From: Myxococcaceae bacterium | GTDB taxonomy: Bacteria > Myxococcota > Myxococcia > Myxococcales > Myxococcaceae | Direction: 5' to 3' | NCBI GenBank assembly: GCA_017881265.1 | Contig: JADGRA010000055.1 | Coordinates: 1 to 62,800 of the forward strand | Length of the DNA stretch: 62,800 nt | In this document: positions 471-10,962 of the stretch, piece after piece | Numbering within the stretch: the first letter of the stretch is position 1 | How the letters are laid out: each line of letters begins with the position of its first letter | Translations under genes and position numbers: made by a program | Notes under the pieces: model-generated | Seen by the model: only the letters and a program-made list of their open reading frames with translations | Databases searched by the model: none | What the model was told of the DNA's origin: nothing

Positions 471-2378
471 TCACGACGCGTGGGTATGCACGTTCGGACC
501 GTCGCTCGGGTAGCAGCAAGTGCCCGAGCTGATCGTGCGCGAACTCTCCTGCGAGGAATTGGAACTTGCTGTCCCTCTCCAACCCCTATCAAGGCGTAGC
601 CCTGGCGCTGTCGACTGGTCGATACGACGCAATGAATTCGTGGACGGCACCGGCAGCTGCCCTAGGCTTCCATAGGCGATGGGTACCGCCGTCATTCCGC
701 TGCGGCGCGACGCGAACAGGTAGCCCTGCCCGCGCGAAGCCAGCGACTTGAGCCGGTTGGGGTGTAGTCGGTACGCCTCGACGGCCCGCGTCGACAGCAT
801 TCCAGTTGGCAGGACGGTAGAGAGAATGCTTCGCTCCTGCTGAAGGGTGTTTTCAAGACGCGGCATTGTGCCGAGACTGCGTGCCATGCGCTCGCACAGC
901 TCCGGGTTGTCCTGGGCCAGGATGTCCTTCGTCCGCGTGTTGTCCCAGACCGCCTGGGCGAACTGCTTCGAGACAATCTCCAGGTCCGCCATCGACTGGT
1001 GGGACAGCGTGAATTGAATGTGCGCGTCGCGTAGCTTGTTGAGCGAGTCGACTATGGACATGTCCGCGAACGTCCCGAATTCATCCACGCAAACCGAAAA
1101 TGGCCGTTGGTTGCGCGTTTCCCGGAAAACTTGCCGCAGCGACGCCTCCTGCTGGAGGTCCATCAACATGCATTTCCCCAACGCCGGCGCCTGCAGCTTG
1201 AAGAGATTGGACGGGAGCTGGACGTAGACGAGGCGATTTCTTTCCAGGACGTCGTCGAAGCAGATTTCCGGTGCGTACGCATTGACGAGGGGCGACTGAA
1301 ACCTGTCCACCGCGCCGAGGAGACCCGAAAGGCACTGAGCTGCGTCCCGCCCCAGCGAGAGTGACTGGGCGCGTAACTCCTCGACCGCTTCGCGGTCTTC
1401 AGACAGCAGAAGACATCGCTTGAATGTCGTTCCCCACTCCGAGTCGAGTGCGGACACCCCACGCAGGCAGACGGCCACGTCGCGCAGGTTGAAGGGAAGA
1501 CCATACCCCGCCGAACTCACCCAGCTGTGCAGCACCCGGCAGATGCGGCTGAAGGCCAGGTAGGCCTGGGTGTTGTAGTAGGCGTTGTCCCCGAGGTTGA
1601 AGACGGAGAAGACGCGCTCGGCCATGGCCATGACGTCCCCGCCCGGGTCGCCCGGCGTCCGCGGCTTCACGTAAACCAAGTTGTAGGCGTGCGAGAACAG
1701 CTGAGGCCGGTTCCACGCTGGCAATGCGAAGAGACGTAAGTCGTCTGGGCGCCCGGCAATGTGGGCGATGCTTCTCATTGTCTTGGCGTTCTCGTCGGAC
1801 CCCTTGGCGTCAATGACGAGAACGCCCTTCCCGTCCAGCGCGTCCTGCAACACTTCGGGCCAGAGAATGCTTGTCGTCTTGCCCGAACCCGTCTTCCCGA
1901 GGACATGACGGTGCATGCTCCTCTCTTCTTGGGAGAGGTACACGGGACGCCAGGACAGGCCCCAGGGCGGAAGGAGTCGCCGCCCGGGCGTCAGCCCGAC
2001 GAAGGTGCGGCCGCCGCGGTTCACCATGTACTTCATGGCCAGGAAGGAACGTGTCGGGAAGCGGCGCCCTTCAAGCTCATCCGCCATGCCGGTTGTCTTC
2101 GCGGTGAAGCGCTTGTTCCGGAAGACGACCCAGCCCCGGTACACAAGAAAAAGCATCAGCAGGCCACCGGCCAGCGCCGACAGCGCGGCCTCGGGGTACC
2201 GCATTGCCAGCCGGTCAAACATGGCCAGCGTTTCAATGTAGCGCCCGACTGGTTGGCCTCGGAAAGGGCCTCGCGCCACGCCGAGCTGGTAGCCCATGGT
2301 GACGTGGTTGAAGAAGAGGAAGACGGCGACTAAAAGCAGTAGACGGGGGACGAAGGCAGAGGACCGGGTGGTTTGCAT
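471..2378 (-). CDS. VirD4/TraG-like type IV coupling ATPase
   Basis: A 635-residue membrane-anchored ATPase. Two hydrophobic segments (about residues 12-28 and 64-82) anchor the N-terminus in the inner membrane. Walker A 'GKTGSGKTT' is at 161-169 and Walker B 'VCVDEFG' at 429-435, followed by a TraG/TraM-recognition type C-terminal half. Such proteins recruit the relaxase-DNA complex to a conjugation channel. The open frame extends 42 codons further upstream, but that part is basic and low-complexity. The ATG at 2378 gives a clean cytoplasmic N-tail before the first membrane span, so I chose it; its ribosome site is weak. No relaxase or mating-pair gene is visible nearby, so it may be a remnant or act in trans. 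It could also be a TraG-like ATPase of a non-conjugative element. Confidence 0.85.
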   Translation of the reverse strand: MQTTRSSAFVPRLLLLVAVFLFFNHVTMGYQLGVARGPFRGQPVGRYIETLAMFDRLAMRYPEAALSALAGGLLMLFLVYRGWVVFRNKRFTAKTTGMADELEGRRFPTRSFLAMKYMVNRGGRTFVGLTPGRRLLPPWGLSWRPVYLSQEERSMHRHVLGKTGSGKTTSILWPEVLQDALDGKGVLVIDAKGSDENAKTMRSIAHIAGRPDDLRLFALPAWNRPQLFSHAYNLVYVKPRTPGDPGGDVMAMAERVFSVFNLGDNAYYNTQAYLAFSRICRVLHSWVSSAGYGLPFNLRDVAVCLRGVSALDSEWGTTFKRCLLLSEDREAVEELRAQSLSLGRDAAQCLSGLLGAVDRFQSPLVNAYAPEICFDDVLERNRLVYVQLPSNLFKLQAPALGKCMLMDLQQEASLRQVFRETRNQRPFSVCVDEFGTFADMSIVDSLNKLRDAHIQFTLSHQSMADLEIVSKQFAQAVWDNTRTKDILAQDNPELCERMARSLGTMPRLENTLQQERSILSTVLPTGMLSTRAVEAYRLHPNRLKSLASRGQGYLFASRRSGMTAVPIAYGSLGQLPVPSTNSLRRIDQSTAPGLRLDRGWRGTASSNSSQESSRTISSGTCCYPSDGPNVHTHAS

Positions 2379-2547
2379 GGCGGGGCAGTAGTGCAAGCGC
2401 CGTGACGGCGGTGCAGCCCACCGCGCCAACCTTCCGACGTCCCTTCTCCCAGGCTGCCACGGGCCCCCACGGGCCACGCGAAGTGGCCAGGCCTTCAGCA
2501 CCAAGCCGCCGCCTGTCAGCTTTGACTGGCATTCCTGACAGGCATTG

Positions 2548-2574
2548 TTGACGCCACGGGGAGAGGCCTACAGT
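2548..2574 (+). promoter_or_regulatory. sigma-70 type promoter for the FHA activator
   Basis: TTGACG (2548-2553) and TACAGT (2569-2574) are separated by 15 bases, slightly short. The predicted transcript start lies a few bases before the ATG at 2608, which suits a leader of about 27 bases for the upstream reading frame. The site lies in the 229-base gap between the divergent coupling-ATPase gene and the activator. I saw no sigma-54 -24/-12 element with correct spacing in the gap. Confidence 0.4.
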
Positions 2575-2607
2575 TCCCGAAGAACCGACGCTCAACAGGC
2601 GGCTGGT

Positions 2608-2715
2608 ATGCCCACAGTGGAAGGCCAGGAGACTCTCCCCCCGGACGCCGTCCCGACGGCTGGCCCTGGAGATGACTCCATCGGGAGGTCACTGCGCGTG
2701 CCCTCGGAGAAATAG
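2608..2715 (+). other. amber-terminated 5' segment of the FHA activator gene
   Basis: ATG at 2608 opens 35 codons in the same frame as the downstream FHA activator and ends at TAG 2713-2715. After the TAG the frame continues without any other stop through 'ALRILRQGRPP' straight into the FHA domain. That stretch looks like the first beta strand of the domain. The arrangement (promoter at 2548, ATG at 2608 with AGGCGG upstream) suggests this was the original start. The amber codon is then a nonsense mutation in a linker ahead of the domain, or less likely a read-through signal. A sequencing error is also possible. Confidence 0.55.
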
Positions 2716-2772
2716 CTCCAGAAGGGCCCCTGCCCCAAGGCCCTCCGCATTCTTCGTCAGGGCCGGCCCCCG

Positions 2773-4116
2773 GTGGCCATCCCGCTCGACACCCGCCGCG
2801 TGTACACCCTCGGCCGCGCCGAGAAGGCGGACGTGTGGTTCGAGGACGAGGCAGTGTCCAGACAGCACGCCCTCCTCTTCTACGTGTCGGAGGTTTCCGC
2901 CTGGGCCATTCGCGACAATGGAAGCGCCAACGGCACCTTCCTTCAGGCGGGCGTTGGGGCGCCGCGGAGGCTTCCGCACGGCGGTCCAAGAGGCTTGGCC
3001 GCGGGCCTGACGCTACAGCTTGGGGCGACAGACAACCGTCTCGAGTTTCTTGCCGAGGTTCCGGAGGCGCCAGCGGGGCCCCCCAGGGTGAGCGAGTGGA
3101 AGTCTCCAGCCGCGAGGGCGCTGGAGGTGGCCATCCACCGGGCGAGCCGTGTGGACAGGCCTGCCTTCCTCCTCGGCATCTCCGGCACGGGGAAGATGTA
3201 CGCGGCCCACCTCCTTCACGAACTCAGTGGGGCCAGGGGGCGCTTCGTCTACGTCAACTCCGGCGGGCTCCCGGCCGACCGCACGCATCTCCACAGCCAG
3301 CTGCTCGGCCACTTGAAAGGAGCTTTCACTGGCGCCACCGACAAGCGGGTTGGACTCCTGTTCGACGCCGACGGTGGGACGCTCTTCCTCGACGAGGTGG
3401 AGTCCCTGGTGCCCGAGGCCCAGGTCTTCCTTCTCGACCTTCTGGAGGGAAGGGAGGACCTGGTGCCACTCGGCGCCTCGACGTCCAAGGCGCTGCCGCG
3501 CCCGGCGTTCCGCCTCATTTCCGCGTCCAAGCAGCCGTTGCAGCTGTCCCCACTTCGGCAGGACTTCGCCCAGCGGTTGGCCCGGGGCGAATTTATTCAC
3601 CTCCCCTCCCTGCGTGAACGCCGCGAAGACATTCCCCTGATGGTCGCGACTTTCCTCTCAGCGCTGGCGAAGGGACCTCGACAGCTTGAAGCGGAGGTGT
3701 CCGACAAGGCCCTCGCCTTCCTTGCGGACCAGCCGTGGCCCGGCGAGGTCCGGGAGCTGGAAGCCACCGTCGAAACGGTGGCCGAGCGCGCCCGGGCCGA
3801 GCGAGAGGCCGACGGCCGACACCATGGACGCCTCGTCCTCGGGGTCAGGGAGTTTCAGGAGTACCTCGACTCCCGCGCGGCGGCCTTCGGCCGTCCGGCG
3901 CCTGCGGTCAGGCCACCAGAAGGAGGAGGCCTGGTCAGCGCTGCCGAAACGCTGGCCCCGAGGAAGCGACCCGGCGACTTGACGCGGGAGGACGTCGAGG
4001 GGGCGTTGGTGTCAGCCAAGGGCAACAAGACGCGCGCCGCCCAGGCCCTTGGCGTTGCGCTCAACACCCTGAAACGCAAACTTGTGGAAATGGGCTTGGC
4101 GCGCGACTCACGCTGA
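2773..4116 (+). CDS. FHA-domain sigma-54-dependent transcriptional activator
   Basis: From GTG 2773 this encodes 447 residues with three domains. An FHA phosphothreonine-binding domain is at about 1-95, with 'GRAEKADVWF', 'SRQHA' and 'NGSANGTF' motifs. An AAA+ sigma-54 interaction domain is at about 110-350. A Fis-type helix-turn-helix is at about 405-445. Walker A is 'GISGTGK' (135-141), slightly altered from the usual GESGTGK. The sigma-54 contact loop 'GAFTGA' (183-188) and Walker B 'GGTLFLDEVE' are intact. Such activators, common in myxobacteria, respond to Ser/Thr kinase signalling through FHA binding. GTG 2773 is the first usual start after the in-frame TAG at 2713, but it removes the first FHA strand, so the protein may be defective. 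The gene is divergent from the coupling-ATPase gene. Confidence 0.8.
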   Translation: MAIPLDTRRVYTLGRAEKADVWFEDEAVSRQHALLFYVSEVSAWAIRDNGSANGTFLQAGVGAPRRLPHGGPRGLAAGLTLQLGATDNRLEFLAEVPEAPAGPPRVSEWKSPAARALEVAIHRASRVDRPAFLLGISGTGKMYAAHLLHELSGARGRFVYVNSGGLPADRTHLHSQLLGHLKGAFTGATDKRVGLLFDADGGTLFLDEVESLVPEAQVFLLDLLEGREDLVPLGASTSKALPRPAFRLISASKQPLQLSPLRQDFAQRLARGEFIHLPSLRERREDIPLMVATFLSALAKGPRQLEAEVSDKALAFLADQPWPGEVRELEATVETVAERARAEREADGRHHGRLVLGVREFQEYLDSRAAAFGRPAPAVRPPEGGGLVSAAETLAPRKRPGDLTREDVEGALVSAKGNKTRAAQALGVALNTLKRKLVEMGLARDSR

Positions 4117-4827: not shown

Positions 4828-5975
4828 TTACGCGAGGACCGCACTCTCGAGCCGCTCGAGCAGGGAATACATCCGGTCGTAGACCGACGGGTACTGGGGC
4901 AAATCCACGCGTCCCATGGTTCGGAACGCCGCGCGCGCCGACTTGATGGACGCGACCGACTGGTGCAGGTACTGCCGCACCACGGCCACATCCTCGTGAC
5001 TCAGCCGAGTCCCGGCATGCGGCGCCTCAAGCCGAACCTCTGCTTCCCGCTGATGCCCGAGAACTGGAAGCCCGGCAAGTTGCCGGAGCTCCGTCGCAGC
5101 TTCACCGAAGGTGACGGCCCGCATCGCGGCTGGCTTTCGGGCCGCTGCCTTCCTGCGCCAGGAACCGAGCGCGGCGTTGACGGAGTCTGCGCGGCCACCG
5201 CCCAGCACCAGAAAGAGAACCTCCGGTGCTAGCCCGTCGGGGTACTGGCTTTCATAGTGCGTCCGGCGACCGTCCAGGCCGGACGCGTCGCCGAGGAACT
5301 TCTGGTAGCGGTCGGCCTTCGCAAGCGTCGCCCCGGGCGGGTTGCCCTGCTTTGGCGCAATGGTGTGCGTCCCCATCTCGCACTCGAGGAAGTACCGACG
5401 CTTCTGCCTCGGGACTTCGAGGACCGCGTCGGGCTGGATGACGCGCTGTTGCCGGCGCCCCTCCCGCATCTCCCATTCCCCCCACACCGGGCGCACCCTG
5501 TCCGACGGGACCCACCGGAAGGCCGGGTGCGCTGCTCGCGGACACCGCGCACCGCTCTGCCACAGGGCGACCAGCAATTCGTTGAGCTGCACCAGTGCTC
5601 GAGAAACTGGGCGCCGACGTCGTGCTTCGGCAACTCCGGCAGTGGCGCTGAGCGCGAAAGCGCTGCCTGCATGGCGTACGGCGTCGGCGCCCACACGGCG
5701 AGTCGATTGCCGTCATAGTCCCGGAAAAAGCGCTGCCGGACGAACGCTGGCTGACCCTCTTCCCGGGAAAGCCGTAGCAGACGCCGGTACGCCAGCGAAG
5801 GATGCTTCCCAGCAAATGCCAGCTGGTAAACCTGGGCCGCTGTCAGGTACCTCGCCAATACCAGGAGCCCCAGCACGTCCCTGTCTCTATCCGTCAGCTT
5901 CACACCTGCTCTGCGCCTCGCCGTGACCGCGCTCCCGCTCGTCCACCCTCGCCCGCTCTCAATCTCCTCACTCAT
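4828..5975 (-). pseudogene. replication-relaxation family protein, frameshifted
   Basis: Two overlapping frames together make one replication-relaxation (Replic_Relax) family protein. The N-terminal frame (from ATG 5975) carries a winged-helix-like region, 'LTDRDRDVLGLLVLARYLT', and runs to 'DVGAQFLEH'. The C-terminal frame resumes at 'ALVQLNELLVAL', contains 'PDAVLE' and 'FLECEMGT' and ends at TAA 4828. The switch lies near 5595-5600. Restoring one GCAC next to the existing GCAC would rejoin the frames, so loss of one copy of a 4-base tandem repeat is a simple explanation. Members occur on plasmids and integrative elements of actinobacteria and others and are linked to replication or transfer. 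As it stands the gene should be inactive. Confidence 0.65.
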
Positions 5976-6413: not shown

Positions 6414-7364
6414 TCATGCCGAGAGCTCGGCGACGAGCGCCTTCAGCAGCTCGAGCAGCGCTGCTCGTTCCTCCGGCATGGACGCCTTCAGTTGTGCGCG
6501 CCGGACGCGTAGCTCGGCTCCGTCATTGAAGAGGGCGCACCTCCGTACGAATGCGTCTTGCCCTCCGTCGTCTCTGTCGGGCGCCGAGCCTGTCATGGCC
6601 GAGCGGCAGAGCGCTTGAACGCGTTTAAAGCTCCAACGTTCGGACAGCGCCCGCTGGATGGCTTTTGCGGTTCGCTCGTCAGCCTTCTTCGGCGCGGTCT
6701 TTGCCACCGTGGCATGGAACCTCGCGAACTCAAGCGCCGCCATGAGCTCGAGGCGGGCTCGCTCATGCTTGGGCTTGCCGGAGGCAAGCAGCTTAACTGT
6801 CCCGTTTTCGTCTACCTGCGAAATGAGGACGCCCTCGTGACATGCGTCCTGGACCACCTTGGGCGCCCGCGCGAGCCGAAGCAGACGTTTTACGCGGTCG
6901 ACCTCCAAGCCGGTGCGTTGAGCGAGAACGTCGGTCGATAGCTCGTTCGCCGCTTGGAAGCTCGAGAGACCCAGAGCAGCGTCCAGGGGTGACAGGTCCT
7001 CGCGCTGAAGGTTCTCGACCAAGGCGAAGAGCGCCATCTCCTCGTCGCTGACGTTGTACTTCTCATGTGCTGGAATGTTTTCGTACCGCTCCCTTAGCTC
7101 CTTGTTCTCGGCGCTAGCGAGAAGACGTCGGTAAGCTTCGAGTCGACGGTGTCCGGCGATGAGCTGGTAACGGCCTCCTGAGATGCGGCGGACGGTAATT
7201 GGTTGAAGCAGCCCGTGGTTACGAATGCTCGCAACGAGCTCCGAGAGGGCGCCTTCGTCCAGGTCTCGACGTGGCTGATGGGGGTTAGGCTCGAGCAGCT
7301 CTAGACGGATGCGCCAGGTCGGAGGTGGTGCATTTGGGTCGGTGACTTCAGGCAGGATGGCCAT
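6414..7364 (-). CDS. ParB/Spo0J-family partition protein (orphan)
   Basis: A 316-residue ParB-family protein. The N-terminal CTP-binding domain (about 20-125) shows 'NPHQPRRDLD', 'GHRRLEA' (71-77) and 'ENLQREDL' (117-124). A central helix-turn-helix DNA-binding region follows at about 130-165, then a less conserved C-terminal part. ParB proteins load on parS sites and slide as CTP-dependent clamps in chromosome or plasmid partition. An AAGGAG ribosome site lies 6 bases before ATG 7364. There is no ParA gene next to it, which is unusual. It lies 128 bases downstream of the DprA-phosphoribosyltransferase operon on the same strand. It may serve element maintenance or regulation rather than host segregation. 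Confidence 0.88.
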   Translation of the reverse strand: MAILPEVTDPNAPPPTWRIRLELLEPNPHQPRRDLDEGALSELVASIRNHGLLQPITVRRISGGRYQLIAGHRRLEAYRRLLASAENKELRERYENIPAHEKYNVSDEEMALFALVENLQREDLSPLDAALGLSSFQAANELSTDVLAQRTGLEVDRVKRLLRLARAPKVVQDACHEGVLISQVDENGTVKLLASGKPKHERARLELMAALEFARFHATVAKTAPKKADERTAKAIQRALSERWSFKRVQALCRSAMTGSAPDRDDGGQDAFVRRCALFNDGAELRVRRAQLKASMPEERAALLELLKALVAELSA

Positions 7365-7492: not shown

Positions 7493-8155
7493 CTACTTTT
7501 CGCCTTGGTCTTCGGCTGGTGGCCATTCGTCAGCCGCTGGGACACGGCGGGCCAAAAAGAACCCGACCACATTTTCGAGGCTAGAAAAGCGACGCTGCAG
7601 TCGAGCTTTGGCAGCGACGAATTGTGCACCAGTCACCAGAACATCATCGAATAGCACGACACGCGTCGGCGCAGGCGAGCTCAGCTTCTCGTCAATCTCC
7701 AAGTTGGCGAAGTGCTCTTCCGGCTTCGGTCGCTGTCCGGTGTGCGCCGCTGGTGTGCTCTTTGAGCGCACGAGCAACTCGCGCACATCCAGGCTCGGCT
7801 CGGCCTGCTGCATTCTCAGAAGGACCTGAACCATGCGGTCGTCGTAGAGCGGATCGGTCTTTGATTTTGAAGGTGGCATCGGCACAAACGTAACGCCAAC
7901 CATTTTCTTTAGGTCAATGGCAGCTGCGAATTCTCTCGTTATTTGATCGATGGCATAGATCTTGTGCCGCCACTCCGGCTTGCCCTTCTTGTCGGGCTGC
8001 TTCTTAAAGTTGAGCACCAGGTTGTTGGTGTCGCTGGCAACGTAGCCCTGCCCGGGCGTGTATTCGCGTGTGAAGATGCAGTCAGCGCTCTCACCGAGGT
8101 ACCAATGGTCGCGGCGAATCAGCGCGTCGACCTTTTGGAAGAGGGGCCGATTCAC
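7493..8155 (-). CDS. phosphoribosyltransferase-like protein paired with DprA
   Basis: A 220-residue protein with a type I phosphoribosyltransferase PRPP loop, 'VVLFDDVLVTGAQF', at 166-179. A ComF-like upstream segment 'VPMPPSKSKTDPLYDDR' lies at about 91-107. The N-terminal 60 residues ('LIRRDHWYLGESADC', 'NNLVLNFKK') are unfamiliar. Start is GTG 8155, 8 bases after the dprA-like stop, so the two genes form an operon. The substrate is unknown; nucleobase salvage is possible, but the constant pairing with a DprA-like protein on mobile DNA suggests a conflict role. The DNA is visibly less GC-rich than the chromosome: 7861-7920 has 26 G or C of 60, a sign of separate ancestry. Confidence 0.75.
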   Translation of the reverse strand: MNRPLFQKVDALIRRDHWYLGESADCIFTREYTPGQGYVASDTNNLVLNFKKQPDKKGKPEWRHKIYAIDQITREFAAAIDLKKMVGVTFVPMPPSKSKTDPLYDDRMVQVLLRMQQAEPSLDVRELLVRSKSTPAAHTGQRPKPEEHFANLEIDEKLSSPAPTRVVLFDDVLVTGAQFVAAKARLQRRFSSLENVVGFFLARRVPAADEWPPAEDQGEK

Positions 8156-8163
8156 AAACGACG

Positions 8164-9078
8164 TCAGGCTACAGCCGGCGTCGGAAGAGCCGCCCGCATG
8201 TCCTCATAGCCCTTTACGCGGACTGCACCCTGTTCAAGAAACCTCTCCGGCCACTTCAAACCCCGTTCGAAACAGCTGTCGAGGACGAAGAGCTTCCGGC
8301 CCTGATGCAACGCCGCACGTGCCTGGATAAGCGTCCCGGAAGTCTCCCCGGCCTCTACGATGACGGTGGCGTCGGTTAGCGCCGACATCGTGAGGTTGCG
8401 CTCGGGGAAAAAGAGGCGGTTCCACTTCGGACCCCGCGTTGAATAAATGCAAACCGGAACCTGGCTGACAACGAGAAACTCGCGGGCGATGCGCTCCTGA
8501 AGCTCACGATTCTCCGCCGGATAGACCCAGCCCAGCGGAGTTCCGATTACGGCAATCGTGCGCCCCTTGGCCTGTAGCGCGGTGGCGTGGGCTACCGTAT
8601 CGATGCCAGCAGCAAGACCGGAGACGACTGTGCGGTCATCGTCGACCAATTCGCGAACAAGTCGCTGTGCGCGCCGAATGCCGTTCGGCGACGGCTTCCG
8701 CGTTCCGACTACGGCCACGCTGGGCGACTCGGTGAGGTTCCACCATCCCTGGAAGTAAAGGAGCTCGACCGGGAAGCGTGCGTCCCGCAGCTTGGCCGGA
8801 TATTCGCCGGCCTGGTGAATCCGCACGCCAAAGCGCTTGACGCCCCTTTGCTGGAAGAGCTCAACCGCCTTCTGGGCCATCTCTTGGGCAGCGCTGGGGT
8901 TCCCGAGGACCTCTGACGGGAGAGCACCGGGATGCGCGCGGAACAAATCAGCGAGTTTCTTGAAGCTCGTGCCCCCTGCCCAGAGTGCCTCGTACGCTCC
9001 CATCTCGACTAGCGGTGAGATGAGCTGGGCGACGACACTGTGCGGAAGACGGTCCAGCGCTAGAGCGGTTTGACTCAT
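8164..9078 (-). CDS. short DprA/Smf (SLOG-fold) protein
   Basis: A 304-residue DprA-family protein with Rossmann-like motifs 'VAVVGTRKPSPNG' (121-133), 'SGLAAGIDTVAH' (153-164), 'FPERN' (224-228) and 'SGTLIQARAALHQGR'. It lacks the C-terminal winged-helix domain of housekeeping DprA, and its N-terminal 110 residues are divergent. Classical DprA loads RecA on incoming single-stranded DNA in transformation. Other SLOG-fold relatives act in nucleotide-based immunity. ATG 9078 is chosen because GGAGGG precedes it at suitable spacing; the frame is open 31 codons further upstream. It is the first gene of an operon with the phosphoribosyltransferase and faces away from the integrase. I regard it as element-borne rather than the chromosomal competence gene. 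Confidence 0.85.
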   Translation of the reverse strand: MSQTALALDRLPHSVVAQLISPLVEMGAYEALWAGGTSFKKLADLFRAHPGALPSEVLGNPSAAQEMAQKAVELFQQRGVKRFGVRIHQAGEYPAKLRDARFPVELLYFQGWWNLTESPSVAVVGTRKPSPNGIRRAQRLVRELVDDDRTVVSGLAAGIDTVAHATALQAKGRTIAVIGTPLGWVYPAENRELQERIAREFLVVSQVPVCIYSTRGPKWNRLFFPERNLTMSALTDATVIVEAGETSGTLIQARAALHQGRKLFVLDSCFERGLKWPERFLEQGAVRVKGYEDMRAALPTPAVA

Positions 9079-9222
9079 CGGTGCGGCCCTCCAGCCCGGC
9101 TCGCGCGAACGGCGAACGCGGAAGCTAGCAAGTCCCCATGACGTGATTCGGGTTTTCAGGCGCGCCAGCAAAGCTCATACCGAGCCAGGCTCAACGCACA
9201 CGGGGGAACCCGTCGACGATTC

Positions 9223-9248: not shown

Positions 9249-9373
9249 ACGCGGGGGTCCTCGCGTCCGAGCTGGCCTTCCAGTTCCCCTTTTCGGACGC
9301 GGGGGCGTCTCGTCAAGCGGAATGGCCGCCGGTTTGAGCCAGGCACCGCTGGCCTTCCTCCTGCATGACGAGT

Positions 9374-9395
9374 GTGAGACCTATTTAGGTCTCAC
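9374..9395. promoter_or_regulatory. 22-base palindrome upstream of excisionase-integrase operon
   Basis: GTGAGACCTA, two T bases, then TAGGTCTCAC form a perfect palindrome ending 28 bases before the ATG at 9424. Its tight symmetry and position suggest an operator bound by a dimeric repressor, perhaps the small helix-turn-helix protein encoded just downstream. The DNA around it is less GC-rich than the neighbours. Confidence 0.5.
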
Positions 9396-9423
9396 TCGAC
9401 TATCAATGCAAGGCAGGCGCCTC

Positions 9424-9756
9424 ATGGCCGTCAGAATCAACGCGCTTCAGGACGTTAGTTCGCAGGTCGACCGAGCGTCACGCACGGCCTACCCAAACCG
9501 CACAGGGCCGAAGCAGCCCCCTCGCGCAGCCGAGGAGCCTGCTGAGGGGCCGAGCCCTCAGCCCGAAATGCTCACGCCCGATGAAGCTGCGCGCTTGCTC
9601 CGCGTGAACCGCAAGACAATCTACGCGGCCATTCGCGACAAGAAGTTGCCCGGCGTCTTGCAACTCGGCCCGCGTGCGGTCCGGATTCGTCGCTCGGCCC
9701 TGCTAGGGTCCGGACTCGGACAACCCGTCGGCTCGCTCAACAGGAGTGGAGTGTGA
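9424..9756 (+). CDS. excisionase-like helix-turn-helix protein
   Basis: A 110-residue protein. The first 48 residues are rich in proline, alanine and charged residues and probably disordered. Residues 49-95, beginning 'MLTPDEAARLLRVNRKTIY', match the excisionase/MerR-like helix-turn-helix family. Its stop overlaps the integrase start by four bases (GTGA), so the two are translationally coupled. Such proteins set recombination direction or regulate the integrase. ATG 9424 is preferred because AGGC-rich sequence precedes it; ATGs at 9322 and 9406 are in frame, but the 22-base palindrome lies between 9322 and 9406, which would put a likely operator inside the gene. Confidence 0.75.
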   Translation: MAVRINALQDVSSQVDRASRTAYPNRTGPKQPPRAAEEPAEGPSPQPEMLTPDEAARLLRVNRKTIYAAIRDKKLPGVLQLGPRAVRIRRSALLGSGLGQPVGSLNRSGV

Positions 9757-10853
9757 GCGTCCGGCAACGCAGATGGAAGGACAAGAAGGGCCGCATGCAG
9801 AACTCGTGGCAAGTGCACGTCTGTTTTCCTCGGCCTGACGGTCACGTGCGGGAAATCCGGCGGACCTCGCCCGTGAACACCCGTCGTGGCGCAGAGGAAT
9901 ACGAGCGCCAGCTACGTACCGGTCTGCTCGACGGAAGCCTCGAGCGGGCGAAGACAACAGCTGAGACGGCTACGGTGGCACAGTTCGCGGACCGGTTTCT
10001 GGACTGGGCCGAGGTCAACAACAAGCCGTCTACGCTGTACGCGAAGCGCATCATCGTCCGGGAGCACCTGCTCCCGGCCTTTGGCGCCCTCCGCCTCGAC
10101 GCAGTCCGCTTCGCCGCCATCGAGTCCTACAAGGCGAAGAAGCTGCGCGAGAAATTCTCCGCGAAGTCCATCAACAACCACCTCGCAGTGCTCGGGAAGC
10201 TGCTGAACCTCGCCGCAGAGATGGGCGAGGTCGACCACGTTCCCCGGGTGAAGGGCCTCCGTGTCCAGAAGTCCGGCTTCAATTTTCTCGACTTCGAGGA
10301 AGCAGACCGGTTCCTCGGAGCAGCAGAACCCGGATGGTTCGCGCTGTTACTCGTCGCACTCCGCACGGGGCTGCGCGTCGGCGAACTTCTGGCGCTGCGC
10401 TGGGAGGACGTGGACCTCAAGGTCGGCCGCCTCGTGGTCCGCCGCACACTCTGGAACGGCCAGGAGGGCTCGCCAAAGGGTGGCCGGGCGCGCGAAGTGC
10501 CGCTTGGCGACGAGGTTCTCCGGGTGCTTCAAGAGCATCGCCACCTTCGTGCGCACGTCTTCTGCCACGAGGATGGTTCGCCCTTCACGCATTCGGAACT
10601 GAAGGACGTCGTGCCGCGCACCTGCCGCCGAGCGGGGCTGGCGAAGCGGCTAACAATGCATGACCTCCGACACACTTTCGCGAGTCACCTGACGATGCGC
10701 GGAGTGACGCCGGTGGCGGTGAAGGAGTTGCTGGGTCACGCCGACCTGACGACGACCATGCGGTACGCGCACCTCGCGCCGAGAATCACGCGAGATGCGG
10801 TGCAGCTGCTCAACAGCCGCCCGCACAGCACATGGACAGCACACGGGCCCTAG
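9753..10853 (+). CDS. tyrosine recombinase (integrase)
   Basis: A 366-residue phage/ICE-type tyrosine recombinase. An N-terminal arm-binding region is followed by a SAM-like core-binding domain (about 72-165) and the catalytic domain (about 175-350). The active-site set is visible: R208 in 'RTGLRVGELLAL', K242 in 'SPKGG', H303 and R306 in 'HDLRH', H329 in 'LLGHAD' and nucleophile Y338 in 'MRYAHL'. GTG start has AGGAG seven or so bases upstream. The gene ends 37 bases from the 3' end of tRNA-Gly, the classic layout for an element integrated into a tRNA gene. All catalytic residues are present, so it should be active. Confidence 0.95.
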   Translation: MSVRQRRWKDKKGRMQNSWQVHVCFPRPDGHVREIRRTSPVNTRRGAEEYERQLRTGLLDGSLERAKTTAETATVAQFADRFLDWAEVNNKPSTLYAKRIIVREHLLPAFGALRLDAVRFAAIESYKAKKLREKFSAKSINNHLAVLGKLLNLAAEMGEVDHVPRVKGLRVQKSGFNFLDFEEADRFLGAAEPGWFALLLVALRTGLRVGELLALRWEDVDLKVGRLVVRRTLWNGQEGSPKGGRAREVPLGDEVLRVLQEHRHLRAHVFCHEDGSPFTHSELKDVVPRTCRRAGLAKRLTMHDLRHTFASHLTMRGVTPVAVKELLGHADLTTTMRYAHLAPRITRDAVQLLNSRPHSTWTAHGP

Positions 10854-10886: not shown

Positions 10887-10890
10887 GAGG

Positions 10891-10962
10891 AGCGGGAAAA
10901 GGGATTTGAACCCTCGACCCTCGCCTTGGCAAGGCGATGCTCTACCACTGAGCTATTCCCGC
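10891..10962 (-). tRNA. tRNA-Gly (anticodon GCC)
   Basis: A 72-base cloverleaf reads from GCGGGAATAGC at 10962. Acceptor stem GCGGGAA pairs with TTCCCGC and the discriminator is T. The anticodon stem TCGCC/GGCGA encloses loop TTGCCAA with anticodon GCC at 10928-10930. The T-loop TTCAAAT is standard. CCA is not encoded (the next bases are CCT). A promoter lies upstream and a hairpin-plus-T terminator downstream. The integrase gene points at its 3' end, so this gene is the likely attachment site; it remains complete after integration. I found no second copy of its 3' end to the left in this window. Confidence 0.96.

Follow-up and report, generated by a model that had tools for sequence, protein, structure and literature searches.

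The locus described here raises the question of why a short DprA-family gene should lie directly upstream of a small phosphoribosyltransferase (PRTase) gene on mobile DNA. A sequence-only reading of the window (the whole stretch of 62,800 nucleotides that was analyzed) had taken the two genes for a possible immune operon acting through nucleobase or PRPP chemistry, and had linked them, without naming a system, to DprA-PRTase pairs listed as candidate defence genes. Such defence pairs on mobile DNA have already been published, under the name ShosTA (PMC9122126, PMC11878078, PMC12593503). The previously unannotated operon in the window is a ShosTA (DprA-PRTase) pair. It is another copy of an already described system, and its novelty is limited to an additional copy of the compact form.

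The operon and the element that carries it

Both genes lie on the minus strand, and both were found intact and full length, with the coordinates and the spacing that the sequence-only reading had given. The upstream, shosA-like gene (8164-9078) encodes a DprA-family protein of 304 aa, the probable antitoxin; it runs from an ATG at 9078 to a stop codon at 8164-8166 and is preceded by a GGAGGG ribosome-binding site (9087-9092, minus strand). The downstream, shosT-like gene (7493-8155) starts with a GTG at 8155 and encodes a compact PRTase of 220 aa, the probable toxin. A gap of 8 bases (8156-8163, minus strand) couples the two as an operon, whereas in relatives with the same gene order an overlap of about 4-80 bases is usual. 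The operon has a GC content of 60.3%, lower than that of all 252 segments of the same size to the right of the tRNA gene described below (mean 71.3%, minimum 64.3%). This agrees with the earlier description of the DNA as less GC-rich than the chromosome, and the count of 26 G or C among the 60 bases of 7861-7920 was exact.

The contig begins on its left with about 11 kb of lower-GC DNA, and the pair lies in this part. Also encoded in this stretch are a TraG/TraD-like conjugation coupling protein (471-2504, minus strand; Pfam TraG-D_C, 32.8 bits), a Replic_Relax mobilization protein (4828-5975, minus strand), a ParB-family protein directly downstream of the pair (6414-7364, minus strand; Pfam ParB_N, 76 bits), an excisionase-like HTH_17/AlpA-like protein (9322-9756, plus strand; Pfam HTH_17, 43.5 bits) and the tyrosine integrase of the element (9753-10853, plus strand; Pfam PF00589, 117.9 bits). 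The ParB and integrase neighbors named in the sequence-only reading were thus both recovered by Pfam. About 35 bases separate the end of the integrase gene from a tRNA-Gly(GCC) gene detected by ARAGORN (10889-10962, minus strand), whose 3' end points toward the integrase. This tRNA gene is probably the integration site, a classic one for integrases, and a CDP-alcohol phosphatidyltransferase gene lies beyond it.

The presence of the coupling protein supports a mobilizable or conjugative element. Its Replic_Relax gene continues from one reading frame into another (5229-5975 and 4828-5694), so that it looks broken, or the frame change is an assembly error. On its left side the element extends past the contig, and that end is absent from the assembly. 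We considered a 34-bp tRNA-like match on contig C26 as the left attachment site and rejected it, as it represents a piece of another tRNA and not an att copy.

Family identity, pairing and distribution

The DprA-like protein matched the PADLOC ShosA profile PDLC03961 with 308.7 bits (E = 1e-92) and Pfam DNA_processg_A with 184.9 bits, and the PRTase matched the PADLOC ShosT profile PDLC03962 with 150.5 bits (E = 1.6e-44). AlphaFold models of the two proteins had pLDDT values of 93.7 and 93.9, respectively. The three best Foldseek matches of the PRTase model in the PDB were the ShosT structures 8zvd, 8zvc and 8zvb (E = 2e-4 to 6e-4), and VIA aligned residues 1-207 of the model with ShosT over 177 residues (Z 12.9, about 10% identity). 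The VIA score against ComF was level with this (Z 13.4), and the PRTase had no significant match to the ComF sequence family (TIGR00201, 14.2 bits, E = 0.032; cut-off 233.6). Because the N-terminal residues align structurally with both ShosT and ComF, the first 60 residues of the PRTase, previously thought to look novel, are not a novel domain.

The DprA-like model aligned equally well with ShosA (8zva; VIA Z 28.3, 262 residues, 27% identity in the structural alignment) and with S. pneumoniae DprA (Z 28.4). Its Rossmann core comprises residues 84-288 (8215-8829, minus strand; PF02481 match). The DprA fold stops at about residue 295 of the 304, leaving no C-terminal winged helix, as had been noticed from the translation. 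The earlier label of a short DprA/SLOG protein was right as to the DprA family; the protein is not merely SLOG, as the usual DprA N-terminal helical domain is present (structural alignment from residue 18-26 on).

We ran a profile of the toxin alone against the genomes of 84,980 species and kept 80 loci. A ShosA-family ORF was present directly upstream on the same strand in all 80, six of which had first been scored as unpaired owing to an over-long start call, and the toxin was also paired in genome G162. The 80 loci include one with a broken ShosA (L091) and one with a truncated ShosT (L114). Distances between toxins and distances between partners were correlated (r = 0.66, against a shuffle maximum of 0.14), which reflects shared descent as a unit. 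In DprA trees, the window protein fell into the clade of short ShosA partners with support of 100/98; the housekeeping DprA of the loci from 29 relatives and E. coli Smf lay outside this clade. Short and long ShosA were well separated on the tree. The upstream partner in every locus and the tree placement together indicate that the pair is obligate and that its DprA is not a competence DprA. Neither of the two outcomes that would have spoken against the sequence-only reading, homologs mostly separate from each other or a DprA that groups with competence DprA, was observed.

An AU test that rejected short and long ShosA as one clade (p = 0.00017) had pointed to two independent origins of DprA antitoxins, but its outcome depended on how the DprA proteins of L194, L170 and L200, all encoded beside PRTases, were labelled. 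When these were left free, short and long ShosA fell on one side of a branch, with no firm support, and we therefore make no claim of two origins. The DprA of L200 (phage phi OH2) is the nearest outgroup of the compact ShosA clade. In that locus (1476-3942), the DprA-like gene precedes a gene whose product of about 400 aa is predicted to be an amidophosphoribosyltransferase; the two are perhaps one more type of DprA-PRTase pair. In L170, from the relative G028, a HAD-PRTase gene adjoins a DprA-like gene in an arrangement that resembles Pf-phage ShosTA.

At least one DprA-family gene was present in 59 of the 60 genomes searched, the window's own genome included. In that assembly (95.7% complete), no DprA-family gene other than the window shosA was found; the housekeeping dprA of this genome is missing or lies in an assembly gap.

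With a family-specific profile, the compact toxin was detected in 2 of 193 related genomes, the window genome included, and all but one of the other 192 were empty. Weaker PDLC03962 matches in these relatives (<50 bits) were set aside because they look like generic PRTase loops. The 80 genome loci come from seven phyla. The compact type is carried by the P2-like phage Mana, by phage Riah, by IMG/VR viral contigs and by prophages, and also by enterobacterial and alphaproteobacterial plasmids. The PRTase, used as a single query protein, returned no relatives from viral contigs; those on viral contigs were recovered by a DprA query and then by alignment. A plain listing of locus neighbors included integrases, resolvases, phage and conjugation genes, RosmerTA antitoxins, methyltransferases and other PADLOC families, and no constant housekeeping neighbor was seen beside the genome loci. 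Relatives are situated in the cargo region of a P2-like phage near cos and beside other defence genes. The sole exception to the gene order that we saw was on a viral contig (L138, 4986-6622), where ShosT and ShosA are convergent instead of tandem, possibly through an inversion or an assembly artefact.

Compact and long types of ShosTA

The pair of phage P2_4C9 is of the long type (ShosA of 349 aa, ShosT of 424 aa) and is identical or nearly so to the proteins of PDB entries 8zva/9vzo (ShosA) and 8zvb-8zvd (ShosT). The window pair resembles the long E. coli ShosTA in gene order (DprA-like gene, then PRTase), in the ShosT fold and in carriage by phages and plasmids. However, its toxin measures 220 aa against about 424 aa for the long E. 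coli ShosT, and no sequence similarity between the two was found beyond the PRPP loop (BLASTP E = 0.40; hhalign, 28 columns). As it has no sequence homology to the ShosT family of 8zvb beyond this loop, we filed the window copy as a compact subtype, with typical sizes of about 300 and 215 aa for the two proteins. Judged by these alignments, the compact toxin appears unrelated in sequence to the solved ShosT outside the PRPP loop. PDLC03961 and PDLC03962 match both the compact and the long type. The compact pairs of Burkholderia phage Mana, Pseudomonas phage Riah and plasmid B of E. coli strain M11 have the same sizes, order and sequence family as the window pair (52-63% identity for ShosA, 29-39% for ShosT) and differ from it only in host and element, with no structural difference. 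The ShosTA calls of annotation tools thus also cover a widespread compact subtype; the PRPP loop is the only sequence that its toxin has in common with the experimentally studied ShosT.

The PRPP-binding loop of the window PRTase is VVLFDDVLVTGAQ (residues 166-178; 7622-7660, minus strand). In 99 aligned sequences, D170, D171 and G176 were invariant, T174 was found in 98 and H178 in 94. The window toxin has the DD and TG of the loop, and K65, P94, D105 and R107 are intact alongside D170, D171 and G176. In place of the family T and H it carries V174, unique among the 99, and Q178, which is rare; with these atypical residues, activity of the window PRTase is not certain. The intact acidic pair appears compatible with the PRPP chemistry that had been proposed for the protein.

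Several other systems combine the same two folds. In RqlHI of E. coli F11, too, the antitoxin is DprA-like and the toxic domain is a PRTase, but there the PRTase forms a fusion with a RecQ-like helicase and the toxin gene comes first in the operon (PMC4670107). Most of the toxicity of that PRTase disappears when its PRPP pocket is mutated, and the PRTase and its DprA-like partner interact (PMC4670107). The Pf-phage ShosTA (PfAC02a) and the similar G028 pair share the pairing of PRTase with DprA, but their toxin is a HAD-PRTase fusion of about 410-480 aa, and in PfAC02a the toxin gene is first. Competence or housekeeping DprA and ComF have the same folds as the window proteins; however, they belong to another clade and are not paired on mobile elements, and the window DprA lacks the winged helix.

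Islands with two DprA-PRTase pairs are recurrent. A compact pair lies beside a long ShosA/ShosT pair in three Rhizobiaceae plasmids (L027, L028 and L029), where the two are convergent, and in two Rhodospirillales loci (L119 and L120), where they are in tandem. In Rhizobium ACO-34A, an IS66 element is located between a long-type ShosA gene and a compact pair.

Proposed function and alternative explanations

A sensor role of the DprA part, implied by the sequence-only reading, is hypothetical; published work on ShosTA assigns it the role of antitoxin. A DprA-PRTase pair carried by a P2-like phage gave E. coli protection from T7 and lambda (PMC9122126). The passages of PMC12593503 that cite Pu et al. 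2025 describe ShosT as a phosphoribosyltransferase and pyrophosphatase that disturbs purine and PRPP metabolism, resulting in DNA damage, DNA duplications, filamentation and death. According to the same passages, ShosA counters ShosT, binds DNA and likely promotes recombination, and Gp0.7 of T7 acts as a trigger of ShosTA (PMC12593503).

We put at roughly 0.78 the probability that the window pair is a compact-subtype ShosTA toxin-antitoxin and anti-phage module on a mobile element integrated at tRNA-Gly. For the window copy we infer ShosTA chemistry by analogy with the published system: the PRTase would use PRPP and, as the toxin of the pair, perturb purine or nucleotide metabolism, and its toxicity would lead to DNA damage and then to growth arrest or death. 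The DprA-like antitoxin would probably work through DNA binding and recombination or repair, together with or instead of direct binding. Phage takeover may then disturb the balance, such that the infected cell would be killed or arrested before phage release. The pair probably also helps to keep the element in its host.

It may be that this last role is the principal one, with the same toxin-antitoxin chemistry mainly retaining the element and phage defence being incidental. Toxin-antitoxin systems are able to stabilize mobile DNA, and the element has an integrase, a ParB and a coupling protein, with relatives of the pair on plasmids and prophages. The position of relatives in the cargo region of a P2-like phage near cos and beside other defence genes, and the protection by a related DprA-PRTase pair against T7 and lambda (PMC9122126), make it rather unlikely that retention predominates; addiction and phage defence are in any case compatible and not exclusive. 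Far less probable is a function of the DprA and a ComF-like PRTase in transformation or DNA repair instead of immunity. The closeness of the folds to S. pneumoniae DprA and to ComF would suit such a function, as would the status of the gene as the sole DprA-family member in this assembly, but the tree places the DprA among ShosA partners and away from the DprA proteins of relatives of the host, the distribution is sporadic (2 of 193) and mobile, and the ComF sequence match (TIGR00201, E of 0.03) is far below the cut-off.

V174 and Q178, along with the neighboring Replic_Relax gene in two frames, could also mean that the PRTase is inactive and the operon a decayed copy on a decaying element. 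We consider this improbable, as both ORFs are full length, the conserved residues listed above are intact and both folds are predicted with high confidence. Valine is, moreover, tolerated at the equivalent position of the general PRTase signature. A different acceptor or trigger for the small ShosT is a possibility that we hold tentatively, and with it the idea that compact ShosTA is functionally distinct, its toxin being a minimal PRTase of a single domain that would have an acceptor substrate and a trigger of its own. Since the sequence of the compact toxin has only the PRPP loop in common with the studied ShosT, the two toxins may differ in substrate and trigger; the tree separates the two ShosA types well, and the two types side by side in the same plasmids would be redundant if their functions were equal. 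Set against this are the fold, partner type and gene order that the compact pair shares with the P2_4C9 pair. A distinct compact subtype could account for the plasmids that hold both types, and if it uses other chemistry, conclusions from E. coli ShosTA are not transferable to it without a test.

Within E. coli, a segment consisting of the pair and adjacent DNA matched 686 genomes, 37 of them with at least 80% of the segment; some of the partial matches are flanking DNA only. In E. coli O157:H7 JEONG-1266, only a decayed remnant of a compact ShosTA is left, in which shosA has been lost and shosT is without its first ~58 codons, the pattern to be expected of a toxin that does harm in the absence of its partner. 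This remnant is flanked by IS66 and an IS30 fragment, and similar partial matches are found in many E. coli genomes.
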